Shown piece after piece: positions 2,475 through 54,625 of a DNA stretch of 64,000 bases. Numbering within the stretch: the first letter of the stretch is position 1; every line of letters starts with the position of its first letter. The position numbers and the translations under genes are program-made. The notes beneath the pieces are model-generated. The model had not been told where the DNA came from, did no database searches, and was given only the letters and a program-made list of their open reading frames with translations. Source of the DNA: Microvelia longipes (taxonomy: Eukaryota > Arthropoda > Insecta > Hemiptera > Veliidae); contig JACMZG010001863.1 in the NCBI GenBank assembly GCA_018340805.1, forward strand, positions 56,607,080 through 56,671,079, in the 5' to 3' direction.

Positions 2475-3530
2475 CGCATTAGGGAATTTTTCTTAAGAAA
2501 TTCGTTAACCACTTTAAATTCATAGTACAAAAAATTAACTTGAAGTACATTAGCACTTCTAACTTGAAGTACATTTCTAAATTTAGAAAGGAAAGCGTTC
2601 ATCAATACCACTTCATGAAGTTGCTTTCCTAAATCGTCATACTTACGGAGAAAACTAAGAAAAATGTTCGCAGTTAACTCTGTAACCTCATAAAGTTAAA
2701 TCTAAAGACACTTTAACTTTCGGGGGGGGGGGATGGAGGCTCTCAGGGGGTCAGATCTCTAAAACAGCTTTTTCCTTTACTCAAATTTATCACAAATGCA
2801 TCAAGTGATATATATGTCATTAAATATTATAAAAAAAAATAATAATAAAAACCTATAAACTAGTATTTATTTTTTATTAACTAACCAAAAGTTGATTTCT
2901 TTTTTTTTTGTTTTACAACATTTCGATTTAAAAGATGGTAATTCGATTCATTAGGTAAAAGTGCGGACATAACGTGTTGTTGCCGTAATGTGATTGTTTG
3001 AAGGGTCTAGGGTGTGGTCTCCTTGTCGGTTTTTGCTTGCTTGTCTAATTTCGCCCACTTCTTTTTTTTCTTCTTGTGTTTTTATTTCTTGTTCAGGTAC
3101 AATGTATGTTAGCCGTTAGAAATAGTAAGGCCGTTTGAAATACAAATGTTACAATTTATTTGCATGTACATCGTAAATTTGTTGTTACTAAGAATTTTTT
3201 TTAAAAAAACTACAAAACATTATTAACTACAGAAAGACGTATATTTGTTTGATATAGTAGCACTAAAAAAGCAGGGATCGTGGTGTCTAATCTGCAAACC
3301 CTTAGGCCACTTGATTTTCATCTTTTCGTTTTGTCGGTTTCCTCTAGTTTTTCCTTTAACTTTTCTAACTAAGTATGTATTTAGAAAACCCTACTTTTCA
3401 AGCTATCGATCCAGGAAATTGAGTGAAAGTAAGCAAATGTTTTTTACAAAGAACAAAAAAATATTTCTTTAGAGGTCGGCAGTGAAGTAGTAACTGTAGA
3501 GCCTAAAAACAAAGTTTAAACCTATTTTTT
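2475..3530. other. AT-rich spacer, no gene recognised
   Basis: Holds short direct repeats (AACTTGAAGTACATT twice near 2537-2575), a run of ten G at 2721-2730 and poly-T runs. The 75-codon frame at 3245-3472 has no recognisable motif and a low-complexity composition, so it is not called. Confidence 0.5.
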
Positions 3531-9249: not shown

Positions 9250-10435
9250 CCCACTATCTCAGGTAAACCCAACCCACTATCCCGGTCAATAATTAACCCA
9301 CATTTTAAGTACATTCAAATTTTCGAAGAATGAATAATTTTTAGAATTAAAATATTATATTTTGAGATTTATAGAGTTAATGATATAGAGCGTGCGGGTA
9401 ATACATAAACTTGGGAGTAAACATTGGTTAATATTTTGCGAAAGTGGCCTAAACTCTGTAGTTGGTAATTTTCTTACGTAAGTTGCATAAACTTTGCAAT
9501 TGACCAATCACAGTGTTTATGCTGTTGTTTACTCGCCGTATTAATTTACACAAGTTTCATAATTATATGGATGAAGTGTTAAGGTATAACATTTAGTTAT
9601 TAGTTTCCATAGTGAACTAAAAATATTAAATATAGCTAATCCAACTTTATTTAGAAACAAACTAAATTATGTAGACATACGATTTCATAACTTAACATTT
9701 CTTCACAGAGGTATTAGTCGTTGTAAGTAAAAAATTATTAAGAGAAATTATTTAATACAAAAATGGAAAACTATAAGTAAACTAATTGGAACACATTTCT
9801 CCATTTATCAAAAAATATATATTTTTCCAAAAGACCTTAAAAATATTACATCTCATATGACATAATTTGCAAAAAAAAATGAAAGACGTTTGCGTCAAAG
9901 CAGTGCGGTACGGAGAAAACACGGGATAATTCTAGAGAACTAGCGAGGTGGAAAATCAGGCCTAAACCACTAAATTGTCACCTCCATTTTCCTCAAACTG
10001 CCTTTTCAAACTTTGATTTTTGAGAGTTGTCCAATTTTCTATTTTTTGTTTCTCATTAAAAACACGTTGACTAATGTTTTTAATTTTAAAGGCGCGTAAA
10101 TTGTTGTGTCTGGTTATATGTGTATGCGTGCGTGGCAGTGTTTTAAAATCGGACAAGTTTAAAATGATTCTCACTAAGCGATGTTTACTGTCATATTATA
10201 AACCAAATGGATGTCAAACAGAAAAAATTGCGGAAATTTTTAACATATTTTAGCTTATAAAAAAACTAGAGACATAGCCAGAACTCAAACCAAATTTGTT
10301 TTTTAAGAGCCCTCAAAAACTTTGTAATAAAGTAAATCTACTTAAAAATCCCTACGATCATTGGTGTATTTTTTAAAATTTTCTAAAATTGTCTTCAACG
10401 CTTAAGACAGTTAATTTTCAGTGCTGCTATTGTTT
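9250..10435. other. AT-rich spacer, nothing recognised
   Basis: The 70-codon minus frame at 9962-10174 has no known motif and is not called. Confidence 0.4.
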
Positions 10436-10439
10436 AAAA

Positions 10440-10548
10440 TAAAAGCTGCGCCTAGGAGTGTAAACACAGGTTTAGGTACATTGCTAACTATTTGGTGCAT
10501 CTCTGGGTTTAACTAAAGATAGCACTGAGGTGTAAACAGAGTTATAGA
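10440..10548. repeat. Left flanking repeat of the ribozyme array
   Basis: Contains GGTTTAACTAAAGATAGCAC followed by TGAGGTGTAAACAGAGTTATAG and ACATTGCTAAC. The same string recurs on the other side of the array at about 14388-14462. A second degenerate copy (GGAGTGTAAACACAGGTTTAG) precedes it. Confidence 0.7.
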
Positions 10549-10798
10549 TACATATATCATTTTGATACTACCGAGTCTTGCAAAACATGAATAGTTGACA
10601 CAATATAATTGTGCGAGAGACACCAAGGAAATGTAACAAGCAAAATGCAATGCTACATCTAGGAACTGTTCCATCATTCGACATTCGTCATACTTGATGG
10701 CTCGACATAATGTCATGTCCCACTCTATTTCGTTACGTCTAACTCATCAGGGCGCCGACAGAGCCTGAACTCACTCTGACCTTCAATTAATTCCGAAT
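10549..10798 (-). repeat. Inverted unit of the 317-bp ribozyme repeat
   Basis: This is most of one repeat unit in reverse orientation, from the CATATATCATTTTGATACTA end to CTGACCTTCAATTAATTCCG, directly abutting the first forward unit. Together they form a head-to-head palindrome. It includes a ribozyme core at 10723-10763. Confidence 0.9.
10723..10763 (-). ncRNA. Hammerhead ribozyme core in the inverted unit
   Basis: On the minus strand the order is CTCTGTC, GGCGCC, CTGATGA, stem-loop GTTA-GACG-TAAC, GAAA, TAGAG. One change against the array (CAGAG to TAGAG) turns a stem III G-C pair into G-U. The catalytic core is intact. Confidence 0.75.
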
Positions 10799-10800
10799 TC

Positions 10801-10838
10801 TGTCGGCGCCTGATGAGTTAGACGTAACGAACAGAGTG
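10801..10838 (+). pseudogene. Degenerate hammerhead core of the first forward unit
   Basis: Compared with the array consensus it lacks one C before CTGATGA (GGCGC instead of GGCGCC) and one A of the invariant GAAA (now GAA). Its upstream stem III strand is cut by the inversion junction. It should not self-cleave. Confidence 0.7.
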
Positions 10839-11111
10839 GGACATGACATTATGTCGAGCCATCAAGTATGACGAATGTCGAATGATGGAACAATTCCCAG
10901 ATGTAGCATTGCATTTTGCTTGTTACATTTCCTTGGTGTCTCTCGCACAATTATATTGTGTCAACTATTCATGTTTGCAAAACTCGGTAGTATCAAAATG
11001 ATATATGTTTTGCTTGCCATGCATGATGGCGGTAAGAGAGCACCGCTCGTCTCTGGTAAGTACTTCACATTATATTCTTCGGAATTGATTGAAGGTCAGA
11101 GTGAGTTCAGG

Positions 11112-13995
11112 CTCTGTCGGCGCCCTGATGAGTTAGACGTAACGAAACAGAGTGGGACATGACATTATGTCGAGCCATCAAGTATGACGAATGTCGAATG
11201 ATGGAACAGTTCCCAGATGTAGCATTGCATTTTGCTTGTTACATTTCCTTGGTGTCTCTCGCACAATTATATTGTGTCAACTATTCATGTTTTGCAAAAC
11301 TCGGTAGTATCAAAATGATATATGTTTTGCTTGCCATGCATGATGGCGGTAAGAGAGCACCGCTCGTCTCTGGTAAGTACTTCACATTATATTCTTCGGA
11401 ATTAATTGAAGGTCAGAGTGAGTTCAGGCTCTGTCGGCGCCCTGATGAGTTAGACGTAACGAAACAGAGTGGGACATGGCATTATGTCGAGCCATCAAGT
11501 ATGACGAATGTCGAATGATGGAACAGTTCCCAGATGTAGCATTGCATTTTGCTTGTTACATTTCCTTGGTGTCTCTCGCACAATTATATTGTGTCAACTA
11601 TTCATGTTTTGCAAAACTCGGTAGTATCAAAATGATATATGTTTGCTTGCCATGCATGATGGCGGTAAGAGAGCACCGCTCGTCTCTGGTAAGTACTTCA
11701 CATTATATTCTTCGGAATTAATTGAAGGTCAGAGTGAGTTCAGGCTCTGTCGGCGCCCTGATGAGTTAGACGTAACGAAACAGAGTGGGACATGACATTA
11801 TGTCGAGCCATCAATGATGACGAATGTCGAATGATGGAACAGTTCCCAGATGTAGCATTGCATTTTGCTTGGTACATTTCCTTGGTGTCTCTCGCACAAT
11901 TATATTGTGTCAACTATTCATGTGTTGCAAAACTCGGTAGTATCAAATGATATATGTTTTGCTTGCCATGCATGATGGCGGTAAGAGAGCACCGCTCGTC
12001 TCTGGTAAGTACTTCACATTATATTCTTCGGAATTAATTGAAGGTCAGAGTGAGTTCAGGCTCTGTCGGCGCCCTGATGAGTTAGACGTAACGAAACAGA
12101 GTGGGACATGACATTATGTCGAGCCATCAAGTATGACGAATGTCGAATGATGGAACAGTTCCCAGATGTAGCATTGCATTTTGCTTGTTACATTTCCTTG
12201 GTGTCTCTCGCACAATTATATTGTGTCAACTATTCATGTTTTGCAAAACTCGGTAGTATCAAAATGATATATGTTTTGCTTGCCATGCATGATGGCGGTA
12301 AGAGAGCACCGCTCGTCTCTGGTAAGTACTTCACATTATATTCTTCGGAATTAATTGAAGGTCAGAGTGAGTTCAGGCTCTGTCGGCGCCCTGATGAGTT
12401 AGACGTAACGAAACAGAGTGGGACATGACATTATGTCGAGCCATCAAGTATGACGAATGTCGAATGATGGAACAGTTCCCAGATGTAGCATTGCATTTTG
12501 CTTGTTACATTTCCTTGGTGTCTCTCGCACAATTATATTGTGTCAACTATTCATGTTTTGCAAAACTCGGTAGTATCAAAATGATATATGTTTTGCTTGC
12601 CATGCATGATGGCGGTAAGAGAGCACCGCTCGTCTCTGGTAAGTACTTCACATTATATTCTTCGGAATTAATTGAAGGTCAGAGTGAGTTCAGGCTCTGT
12701 CGGCGCCCTGATGAGTTAGACGTAACGAAACAGAGTGGGACATGACATTATGTCGAGCCATCAATGATGACGAATGTCGAATGATGGAACAGTTCCCAGA
12801 TGTAGCATTGCATTTTGCTTGTTACATTTCCTTGGTGTCTCTCGCACAATTATATTGTGTCAACTATTCATGTGTTGCAAAACTCGGTAGTATCAAATGA
12901 TATATGTTTTGCTTGCCATGCATGATGGCGGTAAGAGAGCACCGCTCGTCTCTGGTAAGTACTTCACATTATATTCTTTCGGAATTAATTGAAGGTCAGA
13001 GTGAGTTTTGGCTCTGTCGGCGCCCTGATGAGTTAGACGTAACGAAACAGAGTGGGACATGACATTATGTCGAGCCATCAAGTATGACGAATGTCGAATG
13101 ATGGAACAGTTCCCAGATGTAGCATTGCATTTTGCTTGTTACATTTCCTTGGTGTCTCTCGCACAATTATATTGTGTCAACTATTCATGTTTTGCAAAAC
13201 TCGGTAGTATCAAAATGATATATGTTTTGCTTGCCATGCATGATGGCGGTAAGAGAGCACCGCTCGTCTCTGGTAAGTACTTCACATTATATTCTTCGGA
13301 ATTAATTGAAGGTCAGAGTGAGTTCAGGCTCTGTCGGCGCCCTGATGAGTTAGACGTAACGAAACAGAGTGGGACATGACATTATGTCGAGCCAACAAGT
13401 ATGACGAATGTCGAATGATGGAACAGTTCCCAGATGTAGCATTGCATTTTGCTTGTTACATTTCCTTGGTGTCTCTCGCACAATTATATTGTGTCAACTA
13501 TTCATGTTTTGCAAAACTCGGTAGTATCAAAATGATATATGTTTTGCTTGCCATGCATGATGGCGGTAAGAGAGCACCGCTCGTCTCTGGTAAGTACTTC
13601 ACATTATATTCTTCGGAATTAATTGAAGGTCAGAGTGAGTTCAGGCTCTGTCGGCGCCCTGATGAGTTAGACGTAACGAAACAGAGTGGGACATGACATT
13701 ATGTCGAGCCATCAAGTATGACGAATGTCGAATGATGGAACAGTTCCCAGATGTAGCATTGCATTTTGCTTGTTACATTTCCTTGGTGTCTCTCGCACAA
13801 TTATATTGTGTCAACTATTCATGTTTTGCAAAACTCGGTAGTATCAAATGATATATGTTTTGCTTGCCATGCATGATGCGGTAAGAGAGCACCGCTCGTC
13901 TCTGGTAACTTCACATTATATTTCGGAATAATTGAAGGTCAGAGTGAGTTCAGGCTCTGTCGGCGCCCTGATGAGTTAGACGTAACGAAACAGAG
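11112..13995 (+). ncRNA. Ten hammerhead self-cleaving ribozymes, one per repeat unit
   Basis: Cores at 11112-11152, 11429-11469, 11745-11785, 12061-12101, 12378-12418, 12695-12735, 13012-13052, 13329-13369, 13646-13686 and 13955-13995. Each reads, in order: CTCTG (stem III), U then C as the cleavage site, GGCGCC (stem I), CUGAUGA (core), GUUA-GACG-UAAC (stem II, 4 bp, GNNG-type loop), GAAA (core), CAGAG (stem III). All invariant hammerhead positions are present: C3 to A9, a G-C closing stem II, G12-A13-A14, the A15.1-U16.1 pair and C17. Topology is type III, with stem III open. Stem I is unusual: six self-complementary bases with no loop. Transcription would release 317-nt monomers starting at GGCGCC. 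Activity is inferred, not shown. Confidence 0.85.
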
Positions 13996-14387
13996 TGGGA
14001 CATGACATTATGTCGAGCCATCAAGTATGACGAATGTCGAATGATGGAACAGTTCCCAGATGTAGCATTGCATTTTTTGTTACTTTCCTTGGTGTCTCTC
14101 GCACAATTATATTAAAATTATATTAATATTAATATATAATATTTCTTACTTAAAATTTTACAACTCCATATTTAGGTTCCCCAGGAATTAATTGATTAGG
14201 CTACACCCTCAATGTAGCCATGTATTGCAGATGGTAATTAATAAAACAAAACTGATTTTATAAGGCTTTTTTTACTAACTATATCATCATATCTAACAAA
14301 TACAGTCCGACCTATCCATTTTATGCCAACCAGATCAAAGGTTTTGAGATGAATCCTGGTTCGGCCAATTCACCTCAACCATTGCTA

Positions 14388-14773: not shown

Positions 14774-15009
14774 ATTTATGCACCAAGGGAGTAAAGAATG
14801 TCATTATTCCCCTGAGCATTATGTTGGTTCCTAAGGCGAAAGCCGAGGGAACCAAAGGATTTAAATCCTGAGGCGAAGCCGAGGGATTTAGTTGTTTAAC
14901 TCCTGAGGCGAAGCCGAGGGAGTTATAGCTATTTACTCCCGAGGCGAAGCCGAGGGAGGAAATTATTGCGAGGGAATAATGGCATTTTACTCCCAAGGTG
15001 CATACAAGA
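14774..15009. other. Covarying hairpin cluster at the transposon left end
   Basis: An outer stem (TATGCACCAAGGGAGTAAA with TTTACTCCCAAGGTGCATA) encloses four small hairpins at about 14826-14853, 14863-14889, 14896-14926 and 14933-14960. Each has the body TCC(T/C)GAGGCGAAGCCGAGGGA. The closing pairs differ but stay complementary: GGTTCC/GGAACC, AAATCC/GGATTT, AACTCC/GGAGTT and TACTCCC/GGGAGGA. The copy at 53.72 kb repeats this plan with other bases. Probably a recombinase or transposition structure, function unknown. Confidence 0.8.
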
Positions 15010-22299: not shown

Positions 22300-22915
22300 A
22301 ATTATGGAATTTTAATAAAGTAAAGTTGAGGTTTGGATTTCTTTTCACTTAGGTACAACATATTATATAGAAGGAACTAAAAATGTTAGATTTTGACCAT
22401 TTTTCATTAATTTTCACATCAACATTTATCCATATACCAAATAGTTAAGTGTCAACGATTGCTTGAAGTGCCATAGAATTTTGATGAGTGAGTGAGTGAG
22501 TGTCAAAACTGCCTATCTTAGAGCCATTTTATCTCAATATCATGAAATGGTTAAAGATATGAAATTCGATAGAATGAGTCAGCTCAATAAGATCGTTTAG
22601 TTAATATTAAAATTATATTATGTCCTTAATAAAAAGATAAGAGGGGGCGAGATACTAGTCTCGAGATGCTTCCTGAAAAGGATGGTACACCAGTGACCGC
22701 TAGATTTGGCGAGGGTACTGCCGTTCCCCCAGCTTAATGTATCACAGGATTTGTTCGTTTAATTTTATTTTAATATTAATGTTAGACACAATTAAGTTTG
22801 AATTAAAAGATTGGGATACAGATCATATCTAAATAAACTTCGAGCAGTAAAATTCTATTTTTAAATTAAGTTACATTTTTTAAATATGTAAAATCAACAA
22901 TAACAATTATAATTA
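22300..22915. other. AT-rich spacer with one coding-like island
   Basis: Mostly AT-rich. A GC-richer island at 22640-22737 translates on the plus strand as LEMLPEKDGTPVTARFGEG before a stop. Splice context is weak and both strands look equally open, so no exon is called. Confidence 0.35.
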
Positions 22916-22916
22916 A

Positions 22917-23393
22917 TTAACACAATATAATTGTGCGAGAGACACCTAGGAAATGTAACAAGCAAAATGCAATGCTACAACTGGGAACTGTTCCATCATT
23001 CGACATTCGTCATCATTGATGGCTCGACATAAAGTCATGTCCCACTCGGTTTCGTTACGTCTAGCTCATCAGGGCGCCGACAGAGCCTGAACTCACTCTG
23101 ACCTCAATTAATTCCGAAGAATATATGTGAAGTACTTACCAGAGACGAGCGGTTGCTCTCTTACCGCCATCATGCATGGCAAGCAAAAACATATATCATT
23201 TGATACTACCGAATTTGCAAAACATGATAGTTGACGAGTTATGTCGAGCCATCAATGATGACGAATGTCGAATGATGGAGCAGTTCCCAGATGTAGCATT
23301 GCATTTTACATTTCCTAGGTGTCTCTCGCACAATTATATTGTGTCAACTATTCATGTTTTGAAAATTTCGGTAGTATCAAATGATATATAATT
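22917..23393. repeat. Second ribozyme-repeat locus: inverted unit followed by a forward partial unit
   Basis: 22917-23235 is one complete 317-bp-type unit in minus orientation, with scattered differences from the array. At 23235 it switches to a forward partial unit running to about 23393 (TTATGTCGAGCCATCAATGA to GGTAGTATCAAATGATATAT) without a ribozyme. This is the same head-to-head arrangement as at 10.8 kb. Confidence 0.9.
23045..23085 (-). ncRNA. Hammerhead ribozyme core, diverged copy
   Basis: Minus strand: CTCTGTC, GGCGCC, CTGATGA, GCTA-GACG-TAAC, GAAA, CCGAG. One stem II pair (U-A to C-A) and one stem III pair (U-A to U-C) are broken, while all catalytic core bases are kept. Probably weak or inactive. 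Confidence 0.65.
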
Positions 23394-29599: not shown

Positions 29600-29645
29600 A
29601 TAAATATAATAGTGCGAGAGATACGTAGGAATGTAACACTTTGTT
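29600..29645 (-). repeat. Degenerate fragment of the ribozyme repeat
   Basis: ATAATAGTGCGAGAGATACG then AGGAATGTAACA matches the unit segment around GCGAGAGACACC and GGAAATGTAACA. No ribozyme part remains. Confidence 0.5.
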
Positions 29646-39199: not shown

Positions 39200-41505
39200 A
39201 AAAAAAATCAGAAATGAATAATTAGCATCACCAATAGAATTAAAAGCAATAATAAACAAAGCAGAGTAGCGAAGTCGAGCTTCTTTAGCCGACTCCGAAG
39301 TAAGACATTTTTTGCCCAGATCCGATTATTTTATTTTGTTAGTAAATTCTTTGTCTGTAAGCGAAAATTTATAAACTATAACAAAGATTTTTTTTCTTAT
39401 TAATAATATGAAATATTATATATAACATAATAATACACACACATAAGTTCATAAGTTTCAAGAAGCATCATTAGCTCTGATCGGAATGAAACTTGTCAGA
39501 ACGCTTTATCTTATGGAGCTATTTTTTAGGAGTTGAGTTATGAATGGAATGACAAGTTTATCTAAGACACATTAGATACATCTTACTATGACTAGCATTT
39601 CCTACGACAAGACTAGTAAATCGTTTTAGTCAATTGGCATATATTGAAGTTAAAGGAAGGAAGTAGGAAAGGCTAAGGATATTATGTAAAAGCACCTTAT
39701 CAAGTGTTTATGTATAAGTTAAATATACTAAGCACCAGGTATAAGACAGGTGCAAGTACCCTCTATAATTGACACGTGTCTTACCACCTGTTAATTCTAC
39801 TTGTTGCATTTTTGCTTTGTTACTCCTCTGTCGTCATCGTCCATTATGTATTCATCTATTTTCGTTTTATAATTTTTAAACAAATTAAAAGCTGTGGTGC
39901 TTCGAGGCCTCTAGGCCGCTAAGCAGAGAAATTTTTTGCCGTCATTATTGTCAGTAAATGACATCACAAAAATTTCATAGACAAAAGGGAATTTGTACCA
40001 ATTTTCATTTCGATTGGAGAAAGCGTCTAAAAGTTATTGTGTGTCATAGAAATGCCTAGGAACAAAAATCTCGTACCAGGAGGGACTTGGCCCCTCCTGG
40101 AAAAATATCGTCCCTAGTGACGAAGTAGTTTTCTGTGTTAGTCCTTTAAAGGTGTGTGAAATGCTGCCCTTCTGGAATAGGTTTTGCTCCCCCTTCAAGT
40201 TCTGGATGTCCGAGGGGCTGTAGTGAGTCCCCCTTTTTAAAAATTGTACCTCTCTCCCTCCATGATCTCAACCTCATAAGCTTTCCTTTGGAAATTCGCT
40301 TAAAATAGGAATTCGACTTTATCCATTAAAATGATATTCCCTTTTCTATTGCAGAATATAGGACAATATGTTTTCAGTTTAGTAGCTATATGAACAACTA
40401 AGATCCTGGACGGTTAGTTAAAATTATAGGAACTGAATCTTGATTGAATCTGAATTGTCTGAATCTTGATTATTTAAATTCCACTATAATTCTATCCTTC
40501 TTTATAAATTTATTTAGAACATCTCAAAAATGTTAAAGAATAGTTCGCAACACTTAAAAGGATCTGTTCGTGTGTTATCATAATTAACGTATGTTTGATA
40601 GATCAGATCGTAAGATACTATCAACACATTATTCTTAGGACATGTTAAATATAAGGATGATGTACCGCAGATGTGAAATTAGTCCGAATTAGTTGCTACA
40701 GTGTGAATACGATATGATGACATTATACGAGTTCAAATTAAAACTGTAATGTAAATTACATCTCTCTAGTTGTAATAATTAGCTCAGTTAATGAACGCAC
40801 GTCATCTTTCGGATACCCGAATATAGTATAATTTGACTCGGACAATTAGATTCTATATTTAGTCATTAACTGGATCTCTGGCGGATTTTCGGACTCATGG
40901 AGTACCTGTTGATCGACCGAAAAAAGAGCTACATGGCGTACCAACTGAACGACCGACATTAGGAGCTACATGACGTACTTACTAATTGACAGCTATATGG
41001 CGGACCTATTCATCAACCTGTAACATATACTATATCGCTATGGTCACGACTCTAACCCTGACTTGGATTGGTTGATAAAAGTAATTGCACAAGAGAAATC
41101 TAAGAATTTAACAAATAACTATATACTTATAAGAACTGTTACATAATTCGACATTTGTCATAAGCGATGGCGGACGTAATTTTATGAACCTCCATTCCAG
41201 AAGAGCCTCAGGTAGGGACCCGGAAGAGCAAAATGGGCCATGCTGGTAATTTTTAAAAAGCATAAAGGGTAACAGCAGGAGCTAATGTAAGTCTGCACTA
41301 TATTAACAGTCCTAAATCTTTTTGTGATGAATAAATTTTATAATTTCAGAACTAGATCTAAGAGTAGTTTATAGGTAATATAGTTATAACTAGACTATAT
41401 TTTAGTTCCTAGTTTCGGCACTCATTGTTAAGCATTCTAAAACCCTAAGGGACCTGGTGAAAGGGTCTTAATGATTGTTCATAGACTAATGAGGGTTATT
41501 CCCCC
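39200..41505. other. Intron or intergenic, no exon confirmed
   Basis: A minus-strand stretch near 39790-39860 translates as YKTKIDEYIMDDDDRGVTK, but its splice signals are weak. A degenerate ribozyme-repeat fragment is listed separately. Confidence 0.4.
41135..41200 (-). repeat. Degenerate fragment of the ribozyme repeat
   Basis: GAACTGTTACATAATTCGAC then ATTTGTCATAAGCGATGGC aligns with the minus-strand unit segment GAACTGTTCCATCATTCGAC, ATTCGTCATACTTGATGGC. The ribozyme region is not preserved. Confidence 0.5.
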
Positions 41506-41507
41506 AG

Positions 41508-42090
41508 CTTGGATTCATATTTTTGTGTGAGTGAAGGGTCTTGTAGATTCAATCCCAGCTTGGATTCATATTTTTGTGTGAGTGAAGGATCTTGTAGATT
41601 CAATCCCAGCTTGGATTCATATTTTTGTGTGAGTGAAGGATCTTGTAGATTCAATCCCAGCTTGGATTCATATTTTTGTGTGAGGGAAGGGTCTTGTAGA
41701 TTCAATCCCAGCTTGGATTCATATTTTTGTGTAAGTGAAGGGTCTAGTGGATTCAATCCCAGCTTGGATTCATATTTTTGTGTGAGTGAAGGGTCTTGTA
41801 GATTCAATCCCAGCTTGGATTCATATTTTTGTGTAAGTGAAGGGTCTTGTAGATTCAATCCAGCTTGGATTCATATTTTTGTGTGAGGTGAAGGGTCTAG
41901 TGGATTCAATCCCAGCTTGGATTCATATTTTTGTGTGAGTGAAGGGTCTTGTAGATTCAATCCCAGCTTGGATTCATATTTTTGTGTAAGTGAAGGTTGG
42001 TAGATTCAATCCCAGCTTGGATTCATATTTTTGTGTAAGTGAAGGGTCTTTTAGACGTAGATTCAATCCCAGCTTGGATTCATATGTTTG
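41508..42090. repeat. 51-bp minisatellite
   Basis: About eleven units of CTTGGATTCATATTTTTGTG plus TGAGTGAAGGGTCTTGTAGA and TTCAATCCCAG, more than 90% alike by eye. Because 51 is a multiple of 3, both strands stay open for about 120 codons, which is not evidence of coding. Confidence 0.95.
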
Positions 42091-42099
42091 TAATATTAA

Positions 42100-46792: not shown

Positions 46793-46969
46793 AACAATGC
46801 TAAAAAAGTAAGTTTCTGACCATAAGAAATTGATTTTATTATTTAAAAAATATATTAAAATTTGACACCTAATAAAGTGTTGACATTAAATAAAAAAAAC
46901 ATTATTTTTTTTAAAGAAAATTTTTGAATAAAATCTTAAAGAAATTTTTAAGAAGGAAAATATTTTAAA

Positions 46970-49900
46970 ATGTCTAATACAGTAAATTGTAAAATAGAGC
47001 CTTTAAAGAAAGACAACTATGATACGTGGCAAATACAAGCACAAGCCATACTCATCAAGAATGGATTATGGGAGTATGCATCAGGTGAAATTAAAAAACC
47101 TAATCCTGATAATGAGAAAGAACTAGCTCAATGGAATAAAAATGATTTGCATGCAAGAGCAGATCTAATGCTGATCATAGCACCCTCAGAACTCAAGCAA
47201 ATTAAAAATTGCAAGACATCAAAGGATGTTTGGGATACTTTAAAAAATATTTATCAAAGTAAAGGTCCTGCTAGAAAAGCATCACTCTTAAAGAAACTTA
47301 TCTTACATAAAATGAAAGAAGGGTCTAATGTAAGACAACATTTAAATGAATTCATGGATGCTGTAGATAAATTGGAAGAAATGGACATCAATATAAATTC
47401 AGACCTGTTAAGTATTATGATGTTGTACAGTTTAAGTCCATCATTTGAAAATTTCAGAGTCGCAATTGAATCGAGAGACAATTTACCGAAACCGGACGAT
47501 TTAAAAATAAAAATTTTAGAAGAAGCTGAAGCTCGTAATAAAGACGAATCGGAGAATAAAATAACTGAAGATGCATACATGGGTAAGAGATACAGAAATC
47601 ATTACCAAGGACATCAATCTACAACACACCAAGGTAAACAATTTAAATATAAATGTAAAATATGCTCAAAAACTAATCACAAAACCGAAAATTGTTGGCA
47701 TAATAAAAATAAAAAGGAAGAAAAAAAGAAAGGAGATTCAACATTTAATATTTTTGAAGAATGCAAGTCATCGGATATGAGCAATAATGAAAATAATGAC
47801 TTATGGTGCCTTGACAGTGGATGCACTTCACACATGTGTTTAAATAAAACACAATTTATTGGAAAAATTGATAATGGAGGTGGTATATTGAAGTTAGCAT
47901 CAGAAAACCAAACTACCAAGATCACAGGGGTAGGTTCAGTCAAAATAAAATTACCAGAGAACAATACAATTAAACTAACCAATACCTTGTTAGTACCTAA
48001 TCTCACGACAAACCTAATTTCAGTAGGAAAGGCTACCAATCATGGTCACACAGTAATATTTAAGAAAAATTTTGCAGTAGTCAAAAATAAATTTGGAAAA
48101 ACTGTAATGAAAGCAAATAGGAAAAATGGATTGTACTACATAGAAAATCAAAATAAAAATTATTCCAATGAAAATCATGAATCAAACCTAAGCAAAGAGT
48201 CTAAAATTACAAGTTGGCATCAGAAAATGGGACATCTAAATGAAACAGAATTAAAATTGGCTATGAAAAATAAACTACTACAAGGATTAGAATTCAATTT
48301 TAAAGAAAAATTAGATGATTGTGATACATGTATTAAAGGAAAATTCTCAAGATTACCGTTCAAAATTAGAGATAAACCAAAAAATTTGGAAATATTAGAA
48401 ATTGTACACACAGATGTTTGTGGACCAATTCGAATACCATCACCAGGTGGAGCAAAATACTTCATAACATTTATTGATGAAGCTACTCGTTATTGTTACG
48501 TGAAATTCTTAAATAATAAAAGTGAAGCATTACAAGCGTTCAAAGAATATAAAACAGAGGTAGAAAACTACACTGGAAAAAAGATAAAATTTATTCAATC
48601 TGATCAGGGAACAGAGTATGTAAACAAAGACTTTGATAGATTTCTAAAAGAATCAGGCATTCAAAGAAGATTATCTGTTAGTTATACACCACAACAGAAT
48701 GGATTGGCAGAAAGAAAGAACAGAACACTTGAAAATATGGCCAGATGTTTACTAATACAAGCTAATGCACCACTAAAACTGTGGGCTGAAGCTATAAATA
48801 CTGCTAATTACTTAAGAAATCGTTGCCCGAGCAGATCAATAGAAAATCAAACACCATATTACAAATGGACAGGAAAAATACCGTCAGCAAGACATTTACA
48901 CATTTTTGGATCAAAATCGTTTGCTATGGTCAAAGAACCAAAACGCGGAAAATTTGAGTCTAGAACACAGGAAGGAATATTTGTTGGATATTCGTTAGTT
49001 TCAAAAGCTTTTAGAATTTTTATACCATCTGAAAATAAAGTTAAAGTAACAAGAGATGTAAAGATTTTGAACAAACCATACTACGAAGAACAAAAAAATA
49101 CGCAAAATTATGAACTTTATTCAAAAGATGAAATAACTGAAAAAACAAAAGAAATAAAAAACGGAAATAAAACAAACAATACAGATAACAAAAATAAGAA
49201 ACAAAACAAAGAAGATGACAGTATCTACATTAGAATAACTAGATCAAAATCGGCAAAAGAAAAAAAGTTGAACCGGGAACAAGTGTCTGAAAGTGAACAT
49301 GAATCGGAATTAGAACATGAGACAGATTCCGAACAAGACAAAAGTCAAAATTCAGAGGATGAAACAAATCAAAATTCAGAAGAATTAACAAATCATAATT
49401 CAGAACAAGAAGAACATCAAAATTCTGAAGAAGAGCAAAATCAAAATTCAGAAGAAGAACAAGAAGAAAATCAAGATGCTGAAGAAGAGCAAAATCAAAA
49501 TTCTGAAGAAGAACAAAATCAAGATTTAGGACAAAATATAAATGAAAAACAAAGACCTCAAAGAACAAGAAACCCACCTCTATGGACTCAAGATTACGAC
49601 ATGAGTTACCTGTGTGAAGTTAAAGAAGCTCTACAGGGACCAGATTCAAAAGAATGGAGTGAAGCAATAAAGAATGAAATCTATTCTCAAATAAAAAATA
49701 AAACTTGGAGTATAGTTCCAAAAGAAGCCGGAAAAAATTTAGTAGGCTGCAGAATGATTCTGAAAAATAAATACAAATCAAACGGAGAATTGGAGAGAAG
49801 AAAAGCTCGTCTGGTAGCCCGAGGATACTCACAGTGTCCGGGTATTGACTTCACTGAAACATTCGCACCTGTTGCTAGACTAAGTTCTGTTAGACTGTTA

Positions 49901-51235
49901 CTTGGAGTAGCTGCTGAACTAGGTTTAACTATAGGTCAACTAGATGTCACAACAGCATTTCTAAATGGAGATTTAGAAGAAGACATACACATGTTAGTAC
50001 CTGATTATCTTGAACAAATTTTATATGAAATAGTATTGGATGAAAGTGCAAAAGAAAAATCAGATGTACTTGAAGAAGCCATGGACATGCTTGAAAAACT
50101 TAGAGAAGGTCCAAAGGACAAAGTCTGTAAACTTCACAAAGCTTTATACGGTTTAAAGCAAGCAGGGAGACAATGGTTCACCAAATTAGACATAAAATTA
50201 AAACAGTTAGGATTTAAATCTTCAACAGCGGATCCTTGCATATACACAGCTAAGAAGGGGGGAGACCTCATACTCCTAGCAGTGTATGTGGACGATATTA
50301 TTGTTGCTTCAAAGAATAAAGAAAGCTTAGTTAAATTAAAACAATTACTTGAAGAAAATTTTGAAATGAGGGATTTAGGTAGTCTTCAATATTGTCTCGG
50401 AATAGAATTTGAACTAAAAGATGGAAAAATTTCACTATCACAACAAAAATATATAGAAGAAACACTTAAGAAATTCAATATGTCCGACTGTAATCAAATA
50501 GCCACACCTCTTGAAGCAGGAAAAAATTTTGTTAAAGCGGAAAAATCGACTGAAGAATATCCGTATCAAAATCTTATAGGAACACTCATGTACATATCGG
50601 TAGCTACGCGACCAGATATCGCCCACGCAGTAAGTTACTTAAGTCAGTTTAATACCTGCTACAACAAAGAACACTGGTCAGCTGCAAAAAGGGTTTTGCG
50701 TTACCTAAAAGGCACAATAAATTACAAATTAGTTTACCAACAATCTGGAAAACCAATCATTGGATATGCGGACGCAGATTGGGGCCAATGTAGTGTAGAT
50801 AAAAAATCTTACTCTGGCGTATGTTTTAAATATGCAGGAGCACTTGTTAGTTGGGAGTCAAAGAAACAAAAAACCGTTGCTCTTTCGACAGCTGAAGCTG
50901 AATATGTAGCTCTTACAGAAGCAGCGAAAGAAGGCATACATTTAAATCAGCTTATAAATGACATGGGAATACCACATGAAACCATAGAAATCTTTAATGA
51001 CAACCAAGCTGCGCAAAGTCTATCAAAACTTCCAATTGTAAGCTCAAAGACTAAACATATAGCTATAAAAGAACACTTTATAAGAGACGCTGTCCAGAGA
51101 GGACAAGTTAAAGTCTCATACTTGAAAACTCAAGAAATGGAAGCTGACATTCTCACTAAGGGACTCAGCTCACCTACTCACAAATACCTACTAGGCAAGA
51201 TAGGACTGAAAGCACCCAACAGCGACACTTCGTGA
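46970..51235 (+). CDS. Copia gag-pol polyprotein
   Basis: 1421 residues in one frame starting at ATG 46970, 190 bp after the primer-binding site. Order of domains: Gag (UBN2-like, residues 10-200) with a zinc knuckle C-X2-C-X4-H-X4-C near residue 228 (CKICSKTNHKTENC); aspartic protease with DSG near 282 (CLDSGCTSHM); integrase with HHCC zinc finger (HQKMGHL ... CDTCIKGK) and DDE residues in HTDVCGP (about 480), QSDQGTE (about 543) and NGLAERKNRTLE (about 580); an acidic Glu/Gln/Asn-rich linker near 760-865 made of NQNSEEEQ-type repeats; reverse transcriptase from about 890 with QLDVTTAFLNGDL, LYGLKQAGRQW and YVDDI near 1105; RNase H with DADW near 1267, ALSTAEAEYVA, and DNQAA near 1343. The pol order integrase before RT is diagnostic of Ty1/copia. 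Protease, integrase, RT and RNase H catalytic residues are all present, so activity is plausible. All minus-strand frames across it are shadows. Confidence 0.97.
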   Translation: MSNTVNCKIEPLKKDNYDTWQIQAQAILIKNGLWEYASGEIKKPNPDNEKELAQWNKNDLHARADLMLIIAPSELKQIKNCKTSKDVWDTLKNIYQSKGPARKASLLKKLILHKMKEGSNVRQHLNEFMDAVDKLEEMDININSDLLSIMMLYSLSPSFENFRVAIESRDNLPKPDDLKIKILEEAEARNKDESENKITEDAYMGKRYRNHYQGHQSTTHQGKQFKYKCKICSKTNHKTENCWHNKNKKEEKKKGDSTFNIFEECKSSDMSNNENNDLWCLDSGCTSHMCLNKTQFIGKIDNGGGILKLASENQTTKITGVGSVKIKLPENNTIKLTNTLLVPNLTTNLISVGKATNHGHTVIFKKNFAVVKNKFGKTVMKANRKNGLYYIENQNKNYSNENHESNLSKESKITSWHQKMGHLNETELKLAMKNKLLQGLEFNFKEKLDDCDTCIKGKFSRLPFKIRDKPKNLEILEIVHTDVCGPIRIPSPGGAKYFITFIDEATRYCYVKFLNNKSEALQAFKEYKTEVENYTGKKIKFIQSDQGTEYVNKDFDRFLKESGIQRRLSVSYTPQQNGLAERKNRTLENMARCLLIQANAPLKLWAEAINTANYLRNRCPSRSIENQTPYYKWTGKIPSARHLHIFGSKSFAMVKEPKRGKFESRTQEGIFVGYSLVSKAFRIFIPSENKVKVTRDVKILNKPYYEEQKNTQNYELYSKDEITEKTKEIKNGNKTNNTDNKNKKQNKEDDSIYIRITRSKSAKEKKLNREQVSESEHESELEHETDSEQDKSQNSEDETNQNSEELTNHNSEQEEHQNSEEEQNQNSEEEQEENQDAEEEQNQNSEEEQNQDLGQNINEKQRPQRTRNPPLWTQDYDMSYLCEVKEALQGPDSKEWSEAIKNEIYSQIKNKTWSIVPKEAGKNLVGCRMILKNKYKSNGELERRKARLVARGYSQCPGIDFTETFAPVARLSSVRLLLGVAAELGLTIGQLDVTTAFLNGDLEEDIHMLVPDYLEQILYEIVLDESAKEKSDVLEEAMDMLEKLREGPKDKVCKLHKALYGLKQAGRQWFTKLDIKLKQLGFKSSTADPCIYTAKKGGDLILLAVYVDDIIVASKNKESLVKLKQLLEENFEMRDLGSLQYCLGIEFELKDGKISLSQQKYIEETLKKFNMSDCNQIATPLEAGKNFVKAEKSTEEYPYQNLIGTLMYISVATRPDIAHAVSYLSQFNTCYNKEHWSAAKRVLRYLKGTINYKLVYQQSGKPIIGYADADWGQCSVDKKSYSGVCFKYAGALVSWESKKQKTVALSTAEAEYVALTEAAKEGIHLNQLINDMGIPHETIEIFNDNQAAQSLSKLPIVSSKTKHIAIKEHFIRDAVQRGQVKVSYLKTQEMEADILTKGLSSPTHKYLLGKIGLKAPNSDTS

Positions 51236-53717: not shown

Positions 53718-54625
53718 TAATAGTTATTTATGCACCTAGTGAATAATGACACCCATTATAACCCTGGTCACTGTAATGATTCCTAAGGCTGAAAGCCGAA
53801 GGAATCATGATTTATAAATCCCGAGGCGCAAGCCGAGGGAATTATTTATTTTAATCCCGAGGTTTTAGCCGAGGGATAATTACAATTATCTCCCGAGGCT
53901 TGCCGAGGGAGATAATTTGACGAGGGTTATAATAGGGCATTATTCACGTGGTGCATACAAAATTTTATCTCCAGAAGGAAAAACAATATATATGAAACAA
54001 AAAAAAACTGTATTTGTTTATATATAGAATCAGTGAAACATAATTATACTATTTTATGCAAAATTAACAAAAATACATTGTATAATATATTTACATACAA
54101 CATAACCACATACATACATAACAAACAATATAATAAACAAAAATATATAATACCTAAATGCTCTATTTTAACCGTATTTGCTTCGTCATCTACAAGACGG
54201 TTGAAGATTATCGGGGATATCGGGAAACAATTCATCTATGTCGTTTACTATCATTTCATTATCACTTTCCATCGTAAACAACCGCACTAAATCCTTTTAT
54301 GATAAATATAACAGGAATATTACTCGAAAGATAAGAAAAAACTTAGTAAAAAAGTAGGTATTTATCGTCAAAACAGATTTGATAAAGAAATTATTTGTTT
54401 ACAGACAGCTGGGATTTAATGAATCAGTGCTGCCAACATAACTTTGTTAACTCAAAATTCTTTACGTAGATTTTTGAATCTGTAATTTTAACTACTCAAT
54501 AATTAAGTTGGCTAAGCTGGATTATAACCGGCGGAAATAATAAATTATTATTCCCGCTGGGTTATAATGACGGTCATTATTATATAAAAACAAGCCCCGA
54601 AATTTTTGATTAGTACCCTTTTGGA
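53718..54625 (-). mobile_element. Recombinase-type transposon remnant, copy 2
   Basis: Left end AATAGTTATTTATGCACC and an outer stem closing at GGTGCATACAA (53952), as in copy 1. Four inner hairpins carry the bodies CCTAAGGCTGAAAGCCGAAGG, CCCGAGGCGCAAGCCGAGGG, CCCGAGGTTTTAGCCGAGGG and CCCGAGGCTTGCCGAGGG, closed by GATT/AATC, AAAT/AATT, TAAT/ATAA and ATCT/AGAT. Then comes TTTTATCTCCAGAAGG, matched on the right by CCCTTTTGGAGATAAATT near 54605-54622. A short minus-strand frame lies inside. Confidence 0.7.
54186..54272 (-). pseudogene. N-terminal remnant of the recombinase-like gene, copy 2
   Basis: Minus ATG at 54272 gives MESDNEMIVNDIDELFPDIP and stops at 54186. The pattern (short acidic start, D-I-D-E-hydrophobic-F) matches MSDNIVCDIDEIFNNTPPDI in copy 1. 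Nothing convincing follows, so it is a truncated relic. Confidence 0.5.

Follow-up and report, generated by a model that had tools for sequence, protein, structure and literature searches.

Penelope-like elements (PLEs) have previously been named only as a strong candidate for the enzyme that spreads hammerhead repeats in animals (accessible part of PMC7229834). Penelope elements carry a pseudo-long terminal repeat (pLTR) in inverted, mostly head-to-head arrangement, an optional tail of 31 bp and duplications of 8-10 bp, according to the portion of PMC3846280 at hand. For the lizard Penelope element PAc, the tail has been reported to be the stretch between two internal start sites, with both target strands being cut and extended at AT-rich targets (PMC11167929). 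Here, we analyzed a 317-bp tandem repeat with a hammerhead motif in a 64,000-nt stretch of the Microvelia longipes genome (the window; contig JACMZG010001863.1 of a 664.6-Mb assembly). The anatomy of its copies makes it probable that the unit is a non-coding, non-autonomous retroelement inserted by a Penelope-type two-ended route.

Array, hammerhead motif and arms in the window

Tandem Repeats Finder returned the bounds (10799-14113) and the period (317) that the initial annotation had given for the array, with 10.5 copies and 98% matches, and the unit has a GC content of 42%. This array is one arm of a two-armed element that starts at 10550 and whose other arm is short and inverted (Table 1). 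That inverted arm, a second element at 22914-23389 and the loopless helix I described below were absent from the initial annotation. An intact core (CTGATGA-N12-GAAA) was found ten times on the plus strand, in ten consecutive units as annotated; these ten of the 11 plus units show all core features of the Rfam family Hammerhead_3 (CUGAUGA, GAAA, A15.1-U16.1 and an NUH site). In the first unit (from 10803), a C is missing just ahead of CTGATGA and GAAA is one A short. Stem II (GUUA GACG UAAC; 4 bp with a GACG loop) and the 6-bp stem III also agree with the earlier description, and the helix order is that of type III. The three helices around the core are not all formed within one strand, helix I being GGC/GCC with zero loop nucleotides.

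In an Rfam search by E-value over 10400-14300, the same ten units each matched Hammerhead_3 with 37.0 bits (E 1.5e-5), and the inverted copy at 10764-10722 matched with 31.1 bits. MicroRNA matches in that search covered the palindrome at the head-to-head junction at scores under their own gathering scores, and were set aside. A Pfam scan of one open frame of the unit found no family at E 0.1, and the unit holds no frame for a reverse transcriptase (RT) with a GIY-YIG endonuclease, although such frames exist elsewhere in the genome. The exact core pattern occurred 0 times in IMG/VR contigs and 0 times in GTDB contigs.

Ends, flanks and inner junctions of the copies

A 30-nt motif of the unit, with up to 3 mismatches allowed, occurs 8,727 times in the genome (4253 + 4474), while a reversed control gave 0. 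For insertion anatomy, 34 loci were taken from the best matches, 32 of them element loci with many long arrays and two of them matchless stretches beside the window, and 20 more in order of position on contig C505; the latter needed the exact motif, and 19 entries on smaller contigs and later C505 entries lay outside the sample. Blast segments at most 90 bp apart were joined into groups, groups under 100 bp being dropped. With the two window copies added to the fetched loci, this gave 57 groups, of which 39 were complete and 18 reached a locus edge or an N. Loci L001-L008 (overlaps), L041-L045 and L066-L071 stood outside the end counts.

Among the 39 complete groups, 33 were arranged minus-plus (head-to-head), as in the inverted terminal repeat unit of PLEs, three were minus only, two were plus only and one (L052) was minus-plus-minus, its plus-to-minus junction being read as two adjacent copies. 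No two-armed group of the 39 was tail-to-tail. Arms ranged from a fraction of a unit up to 15 units or more. Outer ends were classed as A (u150-172) or B (u192-216), with unit positions (u) numbered from the predicted scissile bond. Both ends could be classed in 29 of the 33 head-to-head groups, and all 29 paired one A end (about u160) with one B end (about u204), 17 in the order B-A and 12 in the order A-B. If each end were chosen freely, such a 29/29 outcome would have a chance of at most 2e-9, a value that is to be read with the classes having been set after the first ends were seen. The position-ordered sample alone gave 18 minus-plus groups out of 23, and 15 of these 18 had one A and one B end. 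The A ends clustered at u159-162 (19/31) and the B ends at u202-205 (26/37), each cluster adjoining the 3' base of a predicted hairpin (Table 1); the two ends lie 44 nt apart on the unit, resembling a PLE tail. Read along the hammerhead strand, each outer end is a 3' end, and the variable ends face one another at the inner junction. With hammerhead-sense RNA as the template, first-strand synthesis would have begun at both target ends.

Flank strings of at least 9 bp were common to both sides in 21 of 29 two-armed copies versus 11 of 812 mismatched pairs. Strings of at least 8 bp, ranging from 8 to 14 bp with end microhomology included, were present in 23/29 copies, in keeping with the short target-site duplications of PLEs. 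Their AT content was 79%, compared with 67% for the window; element 2 of the window has a 13-bp AT string in common on its flanks, and the common string of L056 sits 5-7 bp off the ends. As an observation apart, the single-arm copy L048 has a flank string of 23 bp, compared with 8-14 bp in the two-armed copies. The inner junctions were distinct in 44 of 44 cases and were spread over the unit (Rayleigh p 0.47). Among 25 of these junctions, 10 overlapped by 1-4 bp and 15 contained 1-35 nt of filler. In 39/44 junctions the two inner ends map 34 nt or more apart in the unit, so that most junctions are non-palindromic; this speaks against self-priming as the usual origin of head-to-head copies in this family.

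Helix I, template and route of insertion

The helix I sequence GGCGCC is a loopless palindrome. Because it is self-complementary, two units can pair through helix I, which a single strand cannot fold. In a tandem RNA, the core of unit n would thus receive the cleavage site of unit n+1 through helix I pairing, and vice versa. The computed energy of such a double hammerhead is -27.7 kcal/mol, versus -6.1 kcal/mol for stems II and III of a single strand; however, the computed minima are other folds (-32.8 kcal/mol for the dimer and -11.6 kcal/mol for the monomer), so the energies permit the dimer and do not prove it. The exact 42-nt motif was kept in 185 of 252 scored units from the window and the fetched loci, a count that includes 20 loci chosen for the exact motif and leaves units with more than 12 ungapped mismatches unscored. 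The RNA probably cuts itself when dimeric, the predicted cut lying directly behind the C of GUC.

We reasoned on the template of the arms from 195 units in 46 arms. Repeated copying of a single 317-nt circle would make all units of an arm alike. Pairwise differences averaged 6.35 (median 5) within an arm, 8.85 (median 6) between the arms of one element and 7.97 (median 6) between elements. Variants at u44, u64 or u132 were mixed in 19 of the 35 arms with at least three units, the remaining 16 being uniform at these three sites, and neighbouring units changed at 8-16% of steps compared with the 31-38% expected by random drawing. Since within-arm differences are about as large as those between elements and 19/35 arms are mixed, those arrays were probably not copied from a single 317-nt circle; one monomer circle is not supported for these 19 longer arms, while the 16 uniform arms are compatible with a circle template. 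Many long arms seem to have been copied from multimeric transcripts or from several RNAs, not from a monomer circle or end-joined cleaved monomers, and later mutation or exchange between copies could account for some of the mixing. Two further ideas on the template were discarded. Template jumping between self-cut monomers predicts a loss of linkage at the cleavage site, whereas linkage across it was much the same as between similarly spaced sites inside the unit (u44-u195, r2 0.038 across versus 0.039 not across; u64-u195, 0.179 versus 0.151). Multimeric circles of fixed period predict a preferred lag, and none stood out. That the array is young or homogenised, as had been annotated, fits its uniformity of about 98%, but units compared between fetched elements are alike to a similar degree.

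From the motif, ends, arm orientation, flank duplications and junctions, all read directly from the DNA, we infer a course of events that covers cleavage, the enzyme, two priming events and joining. An RNA of tandem copies would carry a hammerhead whose helix I forms only between two copies, and would cut itself in that dimeric state. A Penelope-type RT with a GIY-YIG endonuclease would make a staggered cut in AT-rich DNA, and each exposed DNA end would start complementary DNA (cDNA) on the hammerhead-sense RNA, with one start close to the base of hairpin A and the other close to that of hairpin B. The two cDNA arms would stop at scattered places, and their free ends would be joined by microhomology or short filler, leaving head-to-head arrays between target-site duplications. 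In its strict form, with every insertion being two coupled RT starts at obligatorily different hairpins and the RNA being processed by a dimer-only hammerhead that shares helix I, this course is a tentative proposal, possible rather than probable. A better description, and one that is likely to hold, is that of a hammerhead repeat that is non-autonomous and bears the footprint of two-ended, Penelope-type insertion.

Penelope-type genes are present in this genome. GIY-YIG matches over the cut-off numbered 63 among the 150 of 843 candidates scored, some of which may be host genes. One locus (L072) has an open frame of 605 amino acids with RT and GIY-YIG domains, flanked by inverted pLTR-like repeats of 0.55 kb (442-994 and 2676-3227; 97.7% alike). 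Each repeat holds, by eye, a putative minimal hammerhead-like motif with the loopless palindrome AGCU in helix III, for which Rfam reported nothing at E up to 1. Another Penelope-type locus, L073, is diverged, with a GIY-YIG match, split frames, RT-like frames by eye and a hammerhead-like CTGAAGA...GAAA motif. An open frame in L047 that looked GIY-YIG-like by eye had no Pfam match to the GIY-YIG family and was dropped.

Several results weigh against the proposed route. No partner Penelope element for the 317-bp unit was found in the two of the 63 GIY-YIG loci that were read: no significant resemblance of the unit to L072 or L073 was seen (best E 1.0 and 0.11), and in L072 a tail is not clearly recognisable. 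Ten of the 39 complete groups deviate from the two-ended pattern (five single-armed groups, L052, and the four head-to-head groups L039, L051, L059 and L063 with an end outside A and B), and the end windows themselves were fixed after the first ends had been seen. In the window, the longest flank string common to both sides of element 1 is a 6-bp ATATAT only. The predicted stability of the hairpin region is unremarkable (z -1.14, with 26 of 200 shuffles equally good), and start sites in vitro are reported to be alike on both strands (PMC11167929), unlike the one-of-each rule here. For the ribozyme, the Rfam covariance models, while matching ten units by E-value, gave no match anywhere in the window at gathering scores, the curated Hammerhead_3 threshold being 48.5 bits compared with the 37.0 bits of the units. 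Selection on the motif left no clear signal, mismatches per site in the array loci being 0.0064 for the motif versus 0.0076 for the remainder. The evidence for a compensatory change in helix I is equivocal: AGCGCT copies in six fetched loci looked compensatory, and genome-wide counts of the outer pair (G..C 4390, A..C 154, G..T 89, A..T 11) gave an odds ratio of 3.5 (p 7e-4), but two non-pairing helix I positions show a nearly equal excess (odds ratios 2.8 and 2.4), so that the value of 3.5 speaks clearly neither for nor against covariation. This control is crude, resting on by-eye counts in 100 rows per listing (13 versus 5 and 9 versus 4), and its G..C rows come mostly from one contig with array units among them.

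A first alternative is an inert satellite with a fossil hammerhead, in which the copies would spread by the same reverse-transcription route but their RNA would have ceased to cut. A single unit is unable to form helix I, the motif is without clear extra constraint, and catalytic mutants of the ribozyme of a Penelope element still inserted normally in vitro (PMC11167929), a result that also counts among those unfavourable to the proposed route. By contrast, most scored units keep the motif exactly, in a sample partly selected for it, and the palindrome sits exactly at the helix I site, although hexamer palindromes occur at 6 of the 317 positions of the unit; we regard this alternative as rather unlikely. 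The initial annotation had favoured an ordinary metazoan retrozyme, whose self-cut 317-nt monomers are circularised and give tandem arrays by rolling reverse transcription. Part of that reading stands: this is a dispersed, insert-making 317-bp family of an animal host with one hammerhead per unit and flank duplications in most two-armed copies, and the unit size, tandem layout, GC content and duplications of more than 4 bp agree with the accessible part of PMC7229834. The uniform arms described above would also suit it, as would identical unit pairs being commoner within an arm (3.2%) and within an element (4.8%) than between elements (0.9%). It does not accommodate the type III order without loop I in place of type I, nor that the array makes up just one side of an insertion with two arms, and the accessible main text of PMC7229834 uses "inverted" and "head-to-head" 0 times. 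In addition, within-arm differences nearly match those between elements, 19/35 arms mix variants (some perhaps through later mutation or exchange) and linkage is unbroken at the cleavage site. We therefore consider an ordinary retrozyme unlikely.

Another explanation is a DNA transposon or foldback element whose two ends differ and whose interior grows and rearranges once inserted; it would account for the two fixed ends, the subterminal hairpins and the flank duplications. Cut-and-paste copies would have interiors in common, whereas each of the 44 junctions differs from the rest, and inspection by eye revealed no terminal inverted repeat other than the two hairpins. We consider this explanation very unlikely. 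Assembly of long, nearly identical arrays is difficult, and copies L014 and L021 abut N runs, as would suit an assembly artefact or simple tandem satellite; but short copies of less than 700 bp with different flanks (L046, L047, L057, L061 and L064) have the same ends and duplications, and we give this explanation hardly any credence.

Other features, significance and comparison with known systems

Table 1. Coordinates of the 317-bp family in the window
Feature	Position	Strand	Source
Long arm of element 1; 10.5 tandem 317-bp units; outer end A at u155	10799..14113	+	Tandem Repeats Finder
Short inverted arm of element 1; outer end B (about u204-207)	10550..10799	-	blastn, u1-207 98.6%, u277-317 100%
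Head-to-head junction of element 1	10798-10799		
Hammerhead motif, first intact unit; predicted scissile bond 11118/11119	11111..11153	+	Hammerhead_3, 37.0 bits
Hammerhead motif	11428..11470	+	Hammerhead_3
Hammerhead motif	11744..11786	+	Hammerhead_3
Hammerhead motif	12060..12102	+	Hammerhead_3
Hammerhead motif; reference-unit u1 = 12385, directly 3' of predicted scissile bond	12377..12419	+	Hammerhead_3
Hammerhead motif	12694..12736	+	Hammerhead_3
Hammerhead motif	13011..13053	+	Hammerhead_3
Hammerhead motif	13328..13370	+	Hammerhead_3
Hammerhead motif	13645..13687	+	Hammerhead_3
Hammerhead motif	13954..13996	+	Hammerhead_3
Hammerhead motif of inverted arm; one stem III change	10722..10764	-	Hammerhead_3, 31.1 bits
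Predicted hairpin A, reference unit (u143-159); A outer ends cluster at 3' base	12527..12543	+	
Predicted hairpin B, reference unit (u189-203); B outer ends cluster at 3' base	12573..12587	+	
Element 2, head-to-head: minus arm 22914-23235 (outer end A), plus arm 23239-23389 (outer end B)	22914..23389		blastn
Old relic of 317-bp unit (u40-168, 70% identity)	41066..41186	-	blastn
Possible relic of 317-bp unit (u119-155, 86% over 37 bp)	29603..29638	-	blastn

Elsewhere in the window, an open Copia-type frame of 1427 amino acids with gag, integrase and RT domains lies at 46952-51235 on the plus strand, and a 51-bp tandem repeat of 11.5 copies at 41503-42091 has frames open on both strands. Short repeats at 14829-14958 and 53793-53876 have a similar consensus containing AAGCCGAGGGA and possibly represent another short interspersed family. 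In the genome, several nuclear copies of mitochondrial COX1 lie close together at G000:C564:11661969-11708593 (L043-L045), one of them open over 447 codons (table 5). A COX1 copy on a 42.9-Mb contig, translated with table 5, shows 98% identity to Aquarius najas; the best matches listed are from Gerridae, which makes the host a water strider.

Neither two-armed hammerhead arrays nor double hammerheads sharing helix I are described in the open-licence literature searched, as far as its texts were accessible. In a family with thousands of motif copies in one genome, the sampled insertions give a footprint of Penelope type that is legible at single-base level, and this points to Penelope-type RTs as machinery that may spread ribozyme repeats. 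The one-of-each rule of the ends suggests that a paired enzyme handles the two target ends differently, which is a testable statement on an ill-understood class of RT. If true, the strict form of the route would amount to two-ended target-primed reverse transcription together with a ribozyme architecture, neither of which is described in the accessible literature searched.

Among known systems, the plant long terminal repeat (LTR) retrozymes have the type III hammerhead order in common with the unit but, according to the accessible parts of PMC7761336 and PMC11722881, differ from it by their LTRs, primer-binding site, units of 600-1000 nt and 4-bp duplications. Dimeric hammerheads (newt satellite, avocado sunblotch viroid, Aedes repeats) resemble it in a weak or palindromic stem that lengthens upon pairing of two copies; there the stem in question is stem III (PMC3088659 and PMC6155905, accessible parts), whereas here helix I is predicted to do so next to a good 6-bp stem III. 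Like the metazoan non-LTR retrozymes (Cervera and de la Pena 2020; accessible part of PMC7229834), the family has tandem non-coding units within 170-400 nt with one hammerhead each, low GC, no protein, duplications of more than 4 bp and thousands of copies. Those retrozymes have type I hammerheads, many with contacts between loops 1 and 2, and circular RNAs detected by northern blot, whereas the present family has type III order, no loop I and two-armed arrays. Compared with PLEs that have pLTRs, a tail and minimal hammerheads, the 317-bp unit is without an RT or endonuclease frame, has type III order with its palindrome in helix I where that of the L072 Penelope element is in helix III, has a slightly longer tail (44 nt versus 30-40) and has no significant sequence similarity to L072 or L073. 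What it shares with PLEs is the head-to-head inverted terminal copy, two ends tens of nucleotides apart, short flank duplications, AT-rich targets, tandem units and a repeat hammerhead that probably needs a dimer.

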